Below, in pieces: positions 15,107-16,002 of a DNA stretch of 64,000 bases. The position numbers and the translations under genes are program-made. The notes beneath the pieces were generated by a model that saw nothing but the letters and a program-made list of their open reading frames with translations, had not been told where the DNA came from and did not search any database. Within the stretch, counting starts at the first letter, position 1; each line of letters starts with the position of its first letter. The DNA comes from an uncultured Phycisphaerales bacterium (lineage in GTDB: Bacteria; Planctomycetota; Phycisphaerae; Phycisphaerales; UBA1924): NCBI GenBank assembly GCA_937995595.1, contig CALKJW010000005.1:1-64000 (forward strand). Direction: 5' to 3'.

Positions 15107-15240
15107 TTCCCCTCTCCCCATCTTCGATGGGGAGAGGGGCCCGAGCGCAGCGAGGGCGGTGAGGGGCGGTTCTCAACGCGCCCCTCACCGGCTCGGCCTG
15201 CGGCCTCGCCACCTCTCCCCGCGGGGCGGGGAGAGGGGAA
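15107..15240. repeat. Compound palindromic repeat, copy A (elements E1 + E2)
   Basis: Two elements of one family lie in opposite orientation. E1 (15107-15168) has a 12-bp hairpin CCCCTCTCCCCA / TGGGGAGAGGGG, then a tail rich in CGAG..CGAGG..GGTGAGGGG. E2 (15180-15240) is the same design inverted, with a GC-rich loop. A near-identical mirrored pair lies at 15730-15863, and the DUF559 gene sits between them. A further small hairpin, GGTGCTC/GAGCACC, is at 15261-15278. Confidence 0.9.
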
Positions 15241-15297
15241 AGAAGGGCGCAGCCAGGGCGGGTGCTCGATGGAGCACCCGCGCAGCCCGTCCAACGA

Positions 15298-15708
15298 TCA
15301 AGCGGATCCGGGCGGCCAGGGTTTGCCCAGTGCCACGAACTGCTCGGAGATGACCTTGCCAACGACATGCAGGACCAGTCCGGGGTCGCGATAGAGCGTG
15401 CTTCCGTCGATCCGGCAGACGCGGATTCCAAGCCCGCGCATGAAGGCGTCGCGTGCCGCGTCGCGATCGGGTGCCGCCCGGTGGATCGCGCCGTCGAGTT
15501 CAACGACCAGCATCGCCCGGGCGCAGTAGAAGTCCGCGGTGTACGGTCCGATCGGGTGCTGTCGGCGGAACTTCAGGCCGCCGAAGCGTCGATCGCGGAG
15601 CAGGTTCCACAGTCTCTTCTCGGCGCGGTTCATCTGCGTGCGAAGCACCCTCGCGCGGTCGCGACCCGGTGAGTCGGGCGAGGCTCGATCATCGGGCGAG
15701 AACCGCAT
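15298..15708 (-). CDS. DUF559 (Vsr-like, PD-(D/E)XK fold) endonuclease-domain protein
   Basis: A 136-residue protein of the DUF559 family, related to very-short-patch-repair and other PD-(D/E)XK nucleases. I start at ATG 15708 (MRFSPDD...); the open frame further upstream to 16005 only translates repeat DNA. Core: NRAEKRLWNLLRDRRFGGLK, FRRQHPIGPYTADFYCAR with the active-site Asp, and AMLVVELDGAIH giving the E-x-D half of the site. Then come GIRVCRIDG and a C-terminal helix. The nuclease activity is known for the fold, not shown for this family. The gene is bracketed at both ends by mirrored pairs of palindromic repeats (15107-15240 and 15730-15863), which suggests it travels with, or acts on, these repeats. 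Confidence 0.85.
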   Translation of the reverse strand: MRFSPDDRASPDSPGRDRARVLRTQMNRAEKRLWNLLRDRRFGGLKFRRQHPIGPYTADFYCARAMLVVELDGAIHRAAPDRDAARDAFMRGLGIRVCRIDGSTLYRDPGLVLHVVGKVISEQFVALGKPWPPGSA

Positions 15709-15729
15709 GTTGCGGAAGATACCCAAACC

Positions 15730-15863
15730 ACCCCTCACCGGCTCGGCCTGCGGCCTCGCCACCTCTCCCCGCGGTGCGGGGAGAGGGGAAGGCGCTGGTA
15801 CTTCCCCTCTCCCCATCTTCGATGGGGAGAGGTGCCCGAGCGCAGCGAGGGCGGTGAGGGGCG
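15730..15863. repeat. Compound palindromic repeat, copy B (elements E2 + E1)
   Basis: E2 (15730-15790) differs from E2 of copy A at one position by eye. E1 (15802-15863) likewise nearly matches E1 of copy A. The pair order is reversed relative to copy A, so the whole reads E1-E2-gene-E2-E1, with each element type kept in the same orientation. Copy B ends 22 nt upstream of the DUF559 start. Confidence 0.9.
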
Positions 15864-16002
15864 CTTCTCGCGGCGGTGTGCGCGGCGGCTCTGTTGCCAT
15901 GACGTGCCTCGGGTCACGCTGCTCTGGGTAGGGCCAATGGGGTACGGGCGAGCTGGGAAGAACTCCGAGATCAGTCGTGCTGCCGGTCGATGCAGCCGCA
16001 TT

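Follow-up and report, generated by a model that had tools for sequence, protein, structure and literature searches.

A DUF559 nuclease gene framed by intrastrand triplex motifs as a putative compact mobile element with MITE-like derivatives

RAYTs, the enzymes accompanying REP and REPIN repeats, are HUH tyrosine enzymes. The palindromic elements of Rickettsia occur as in-frame insertions in coding genes and have no gene inside. The nuclease Vsr acts in mismatch repair and I-Bth0305I in homing, and we know of no flanking triplex motifs for either of them.

The intrastrand triplex motif (TM), consisting of a pyrimidine-purine hairpin and a mirror third arm, was described by Holder et al. 2015 (PMC4666352), after earlier work by Hoyne et al. 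on the same repeats of E. coli as PIT elements. A TM of E. coli K-12 adopts a triplex structure in vitro and has been linked to unstable loci, and the E. coli copies of type A and type B occur as inverted pairs (PMC4666352). TMs showed no association with transposons, phages or plasmids, nor with any functional class of neighbouring genes (PMC4666352); DUF559 is not mentioned in the main text of that paper. YcjD, the DUF559 protein of E. coli, was placed in the PD-(D/E)XK superfamily, with similarity to Vsr, in 2005 (PMC1189080). Within the open-access literature searched, we found no paper joining DUF559 with these repeats.

The repeats and the nuclease gene of the window

The window, i.e. 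the whole 64-kb stretch of DNA analysed here, contains a DUF559 gene of 136 amino acids on the minus strand (15298..15708) with two repeats on either side, all four detected by direct-repeat comparison and a TM scan. The left copy of E1 (15107..15174, plus strand), also supported by DNA folding (z -4.2), points to the right and has its hairpin at 15109-15139 and the end of its third arm at about 15165. It is followed by the left copy of E2 (15174..15240, minus strand) in the opposite orientation. The right copy of E2 (15724..15790, minus strand) lies directly upstream of the gene with its third arm toward it, and the third arm of the right E1 (15802..15869, plus strand) points away from the gene. 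As originally predicted, the copies are nearly identical (97% for E1, 68 nt each; 94% for E2, 67 nt each) and the E2 copies are spaced 550 bp apart. The mirrored arrangement E1-E2-gene-E2-E1 claimed in the same prediction holds for the order of the repeats but not for their orientation: the copies are direct repeats, the E1 pair on the plus and the E2 pair on the minus strand, with E1 inverted relative to E2, resulting in the layout E1> <E2 gene <E2 E1>. The left E1-E2 is a gene-less converging pair of the MITE/REPIN-like kind, and with these additional repeats the window copy departs from the simple converging form. The neighbours of the gene, named by eye, are presumably an amine-oxidase-like gene on one side and an rplI-ssb-rpsF-pth-rplY-prs cluster on the other.

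E1 and E2, the latter read as reverse complement, belong to a single repeat family. Its hairpin is built from the arms CCTCTCCCC and GGGGAGAGG, followed by a linker able to form a second small hairpin and by the third arm GGTGAGGG, which mirrors the purine arm if one A is read as T. E1 and E2 thereby match the TM, all four copies having the pyrimidine arm, the complementary purine arm and the mirror third arm; hairpin and mirror third arm (CCCTCTCCC..GGGAGAGGG..GGGTGAGGG) are common to the published motif and ours. A difference is the longer second loop of the window copies (about 18-22 nt, with a first loop of 3 nt), which exceeds the loop limit of 1-6 nt in the ITxF search (PMC4666352). Many other DUF559 loci have loops within this range. 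As single-stranded DNA, each window repeat folds more stably than its shuffles (z -2.4 to -4.2), as does the E1-E2 pair (z -8.9). Triplex formation by the window repeats is predicted from their match to the motif, for which it was demonstrated in vitro in E. coli (PMC4666352).

The source genome (3.1 Mb on 55 contigs) contains 57 occurrences of CACCTCTCCCC compared to 1 of the reversed control, and 63 hairpins of the type CCTCTCCCC-N3-16-GGGGAGAGG compared to 2 for the reversed control. Most of them form tight clusters with alternating orientation, several at contig ends. The observation of a repeat-flanked DUF559 gene is confirmed, and chance is excluded by this genome-wide excess and by the four repeats being the only TM-type motifs the scan detected in the window. 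Both DUF559 genes of the source genome are flanked by these repeats. The second one (L033 2224-2532, contig C45) shows the textbook layout of one converging repeat per side; it has ELG in the active site where ELD is expected and, judged by this residue, is probably inactive.

The window protein matches the Pfam family DUF559 (PF04480) with E=7e-30 and 103.5 bits (curated cut-off 20.6), its start being set by choice at the ATG at 15708, as the open frame extends through the repeats to 16005. Its AlphaFold model (mean pLDDT 88) resembles the DUF559 protein 3HRL, which it also matches by sequence; further fold neighbours are the catalytic domain of the homing endonuclease I-Bth0305I and, more weakly, Vsr. 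The enzyme beside the repeats hence belongs to the Vsr-like PD-(D/E)XK nucleases and not to the HUH tyrosine transposases. It shares the nuclease fold with Vsr and I-Bth0305I, but differs from these repair and homing enzymes, as far as is known, in being flanked by TMs. The nuclease residues D, E-x-D and H are intact, and the active site is intact in 172 of 182 DUF559 loci. With the Vsr model TIGR00632, YcjD scored 13.9 bits (cut-off 97.85) and the window protein gave no match up to E=1. The PADLOC models for anti-phage defence gave no match (best E 0.015, partial), and identity with a known defence system was rejected on this ground. Several mitochondrial ribosome proteins of Toxoplasma and Tetrahymena were similar to the window protein in the fold search, too.

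Association of DUF559 with triplex motifs

The set of DUF559 loci with complete flanks comprises 167 from about 15 phyla. A TM lies no more than 300 nt from the gene in 151 of them, compared to only 11 of 252 control windows located 700-1300 nt away; the link of gene and repeat extends across phyla. TMs are present on both sides at 119 loci and converge on the gene at 99 of these. The exceptions are 16 loci without a strict TM and 20 two-sided loci that do not converge. Planctomycete relatives, with 63 DUF559 loci, show 4.5 TMs/kb up to 300 bp away and 0.11 farther out. Another set of 80 loci, chosen by protein similarity and covering about 15 phyla or proteobacterial classes, has a density of 4.7 in the first 250 bp, which drops to mostly 0.0-0.3 beyond 500 bp. 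TMs or TM-like repeats occur at the DUF559 loci of e.g. Azospirillum, Neisseria, Picosynechococcus, Deinococcus and Klebsiella; none was found at the DUF559 copy on a Pseudomonas aeruginosa plasmid or in a Tunturiibacter phage. Downstream of DUF559 in Neisseria gonorrhoeae (L262, about 1990-2690), a TM-like motif recurs every ~281 bp with an inverted one in between, and this region is a tandem array of TM pairs.

The arms of the repeats covary. In 79.6% of 269 hairpins flanking DUF559 genes, the third arm exactly mirrors the stem of the same hairpin, compared to 15.7% with stems of other loci and 1.0% in shuffled segments. The three arms accordingly evolve jointly, as a triplex or specific recognition would require. 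Furthermore, the stem class is equal at both ends of 83 of 113 loci, compared to 34% at random, and fits the DUF559 tree, on which it changes 26 times (never fewer than 37 times in 300 shuffles). Agreement of the ends together with the fit to the tree indicates that both ends form one unit with the DUF559 gene. A private TM class for each DUF559 in multi-copy genomes was not supported, arm agreement being 59% between loci of the same genome and 65% within a locus.

The link is visible at the genome level, too. From the Gammaproteobacteria, 274 genomes were drawn evenly and divided by the presence of a strong DUF559 match. Canonical TMs were detected in 41 of the 60 genomes having such a match, compared to 27 of the 214 others (odds ratio 15; p=1e-16, a value overstating the independence of genomes that are related to each other). 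At least 10 copies were present in 20 of the 60 compared to 4 of the 214, and the reversed control pattern did not occur in any of the 274 genomes. Where a DUF559 genome lacked the canonical TM, a looser scan detected a variant motif at 17 of 20 loci, on one or both sides. Repeats in genomes lacking DUF559, named in the original prediction as evidence against it, were in part found. Ten of the 274 genomes contain at least 5 TMs but lack a strong DUF559 match; even with a profile search at low threshold, most of these ten yielded nothing convincing. Such TM-rich genomes are a real exception to the link. The genomes G197, G199, G245 and G315 contain 16-47 canonical TMs without a convincing match to DUF559, which may reflect another mobiliser, loss of DUF559 or an assembly gap.

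DUF559 was detected in 44 of 72,556 plasmid records, some of them evidently chromosomes, and in 3 of 50,697 phages. This near absence indicates a mainly sedentary chromosomal element, like RAYTs; a plasmid or phage as vehicle was rejected for the same reason.

Copies, insertions and alleles

Caulobacter genomes contain up to 11 DUF559 matches each. Within single genomes (G435, G445), TM-DUF559-TM units of about 532 bp are present at unrelated loci and are about 89-94% identical to each other, most of them 92-94%. Similarity of the closest pairs of units ends at the outer hairpin on both sides, and the ends of a unit pair with each other as inverted repeats of ~70 bp. The end sequence occurs 59 times in G445 (control 0), forming 23 converging pairs and no pair in any other orientation. 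Six of these have a gene-bearing spacing (483-500 bp) and 17 are short and gene-less (150-310 bp), a ratio of ~3:1 in favour of repeats without a gene, the occurrence of which the prediction had asked about. Judged from these sequences, the pattern is that of an autonomous element with MITE-like relatives: a discrete unit, delimited by inverted ends, recurs at several loci together with shorter copies that share these ends, as in IS and MITEs, and gene-less inverted repeat pairs are scattered through the genome, as in REP/RAYT systems.

At an orthologous site, one relative has the full unit (L309), another a unit whose gene contains an internal deletion (L313), and a third nothing but one hairpin (L303). 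As for empty sites, E. coli TM pairs are missing in some strains (see below); for whole units, the only clean case at the nucleotide level was the solo hairpin. Two gene-less TM pairs of Caulobacter were dismissed as empty-site cases, the sites being shared or rearranged and none clean, and G024 was dismissed as empty site of the DUF559 unit of G083 because its flanks are non-homologous. Another palindromic repeat (TTGGATCCCCGCCTTCGCGGGG) forms an insertion of ~158 bp in Caulobacter G445 (L317 1298-1455) that is missing in two relatives.

In several genomes a complete TM-DUF559-TM unit is inserted in-frame in a conserved gene, resulting in one long reading frame. The hosts encode HMG-CoA lyase, valyl-tRNA synthetase (ValS), BioF, HsdM, HsdS and an MmeI-type enzyme. 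The insertion in HMG-CoA lyase is located at the identical site in six planctomycetes (L062, L075, L076, L069, L102, L086), where alignment to a solved homologue breaks after residue 71 of 2FTP and resumes at 79; the common site may stem from a single ancient insertion or from repeated targeting. The corresponding breaks are 590/603 of 1GAX for ValS, 170/174 of 5VNX for BioF and 496/505 of 3KHK for HsdM. From the last aligned host residue to the outer TM arm there are 4 nt in HMG-CoA lyase, 18 nt in ValS and 5 nt in HsdM, and host similarity resumes 9, 13 and 44 nt, respectively, after the right TM end. The BioF insert contains additional TMs, and both TMs of the ValS insertion are oriented away from the DUF559 gene. 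As far as the alignments tell, the uninterrupted homologues are the empty sites of these units. Rickettsia palindromic elements, likewise palindromic and in-frame within coding genes, differ in being gene-less and are to our knowledge unrelated in sequence. Among the other in-frame hosts, many encode DNA methyltransferases or components of restriction-modification systems (HsdM, HsdS, MmeI type and others; some named by eye), at the loci L140, L152, L158, L167, L169, L176, L183, L215, L239 and L240.

In E. coli, the fepB/entC spacer of K-12 contains a 186-bp stretch with a converging pair of type A and type B TMs. AR_0374 and an ST131 strain lack this stretch, and their spacer is otherwise intact. 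A possible TAA target-site duplication at this position, the sole candidate seen, may be due to chance. Between hrpB and mrcB, one strain is reduced to a single hairpin and another has no TM pair; a single hairpin is found between alx and sstT in one strain, and the pair between ygfF and gcvP is missing in one strain. Inverted pairs and instability by presence or absence are thus common to the E. coli TMs and the repeats studied here, but the former were published as a gene-less DNA structure and the latter accompany a DUF559 gene.

At the level of genome comparison, these data demonstrate that the unit is mobile. The original proposal that the gene travels as a unit is borne out by the discrete copies and the in-frame insertions, except that the unit is normally bounded by two converging repeats and not by E2 direct repeats.

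Proposed mechanism, alternative explanations and the ycjD locus

We consider it probable (roughly 0.7) that the locus is a compact autonomous element, consisting of a DUF559 nuclease gene and TM ends, with MITE-like derivatives, and that it operates like RAYT/REP by means of a Vsr-like enzyme unrelated to RAYT. The near-universal link of gene and TM, the covariation of the ends, the discrete copies, the in-frame insertions and the presence/absence alleles make this the best explanation on comparative grounds. A role of DUF559 as a REP/RAYT-like partner travelling with the repeats, as first suggested from the window, is strongly supported by the link across phyla, the genome-level odds ratio and the discrete copies. 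The autonomous form would comprise about 0.5 kb, with one DUF559 gene between two converging terminal TMs whose third arms point toward the gene; gene-less converging pairs, such as E1-E2 or the inverted pairs of E. coli, would be its non-autonomous MITE/REPIN-like derivatives. TM ends exposed as single strands would fold into hairpins or triplexes, DUF559 would recognise and cut the folded ends, and the unit or gene-less pair would be copied or moved to a new, usually intergenic site. Deletion between the ends would leave a solo hairpin, since each end is itself palindromic. That DUF559 binds and cuts the TMs and catalyses the movement is what we infer, and the same applies to the chemistry involved.

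By analogy, the architecture resembles those of REP/RAYT or IS/MITE systems. REP/REPIN and RAYT likewise combine a chromosomal low-copy nuclease gene with palindromic flanks and gene-less inverted pairs scattered genome-wide, but the enzyme is of the HUH type there and of the PD-(D/E)XK type here, and our repeats are of the triplex type and lack the GTAG/CGTC tag. IS and their MITEs also comprise an autonomous unit with inverted ends and shorter gene-less copies with equal ends. Our unit differs from them in having no DDE, HUH, serine or tyrosine enzyme, a total size of 0.5 kb and ends that are palindromes themselves.

Alternatively, DUF559 might spread like a homing endonuclease, cutting a cognate empty site into which the TM-flanked gene is copied by recombination, with the TMs as boundaries or by-products. 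The homing endonuclease I-Bth0305I as fold neighbour and the common HMG-CoA lyase site in six planctomycetes are in line with this; the latter may however be plain inheritance, and homing to one site would not place units in many unrelated sites, nor disperse gene-less TM pairs that outnumber the gene, so that we regard this explanation as unlikely. It is also improbable, in our opinion, that DUF559 is a passenger, carried or tolerated while the TMs are moved by another enzyme (e.g. an HUH/RAYT transposase) or by replication slippage. TM-rich genomes without DUF559 would fit such a role, but TMs nearly always flank the gene, in a fixed converging arrangement and with a class that fits the DUF559 tree; moreover, the nuclease residues are conserved and the presence of TMs tracks that of DUF559.

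A third explanation, a Vsr-type host repair enzyme acting on deaminated methylcytosine with incidental or regulatory TMs, derives from Vsr as structural neighbour and from Caulobacter VsrA (CCNA_02930), a DNA-damage-induced protein with a DUF559 domain that is required for SOS induction in a strain without the ScmA methyltransferase (PMC12907096). We consider this very unlikely: the repair role is a hypothesis in that paper itself, YcjD scores far below the cut-off of the Vsr model, and repair predicts neither converging, covarying TM ends nor up to 11 copies per genome nor in-frame insertions.

Returning to the autonomous element, we see about even odds for a broader statement, namely that DUF559 represents a new superfamily of transposition enzymes, stand-alone Vsr-like PD-(D/E)XK nucleases that recognise triplex/hairpin ends and mobilise themselves and gene-less derivatives, and that it is the agent behind the TM/PIT repeats of more than 260 bacterial genomes including E. 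coli. If DUF559 proved to be the mobiliser, transposition would gain a new enzyme class. The TM/PIT repeats are widespread, with hundreds of genomes containing them, and they form triplexes in vitro and are a mark of unstable loci; previously without a known origin or partner protein, they now have a first candidate for a mobilising enzyme. DUF559 is a common domain of unknown function, and linking it to the TMs gives both of them testable roles. An alternative reading is thereby offered for the DNA damage caused by Caulobacter VsrA, and the question is approachable in Caulobacter and, via ycjD, in E. coli K-12.

The E. coli DUF559 gene ycjD has the published TM copy TMECO 9 ~170 bp downstream, and its 3' end is overlapped by a partial TM copy. 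Of 5426 E. coli genomes, 3364 contain the ycjD locus (80% coverage). Two genomes without ycjD contain eefRABCD between fabI and sapF (PMC12817139), so that a simple insertion of ycjD was rejected. The fabI-sapF interval (L115, L196, L197) contains either ycjD with its TM or the efflux operon eefRABCD, an alternation suggesting that the operon was lost or exchanged through instability associated with the TM.
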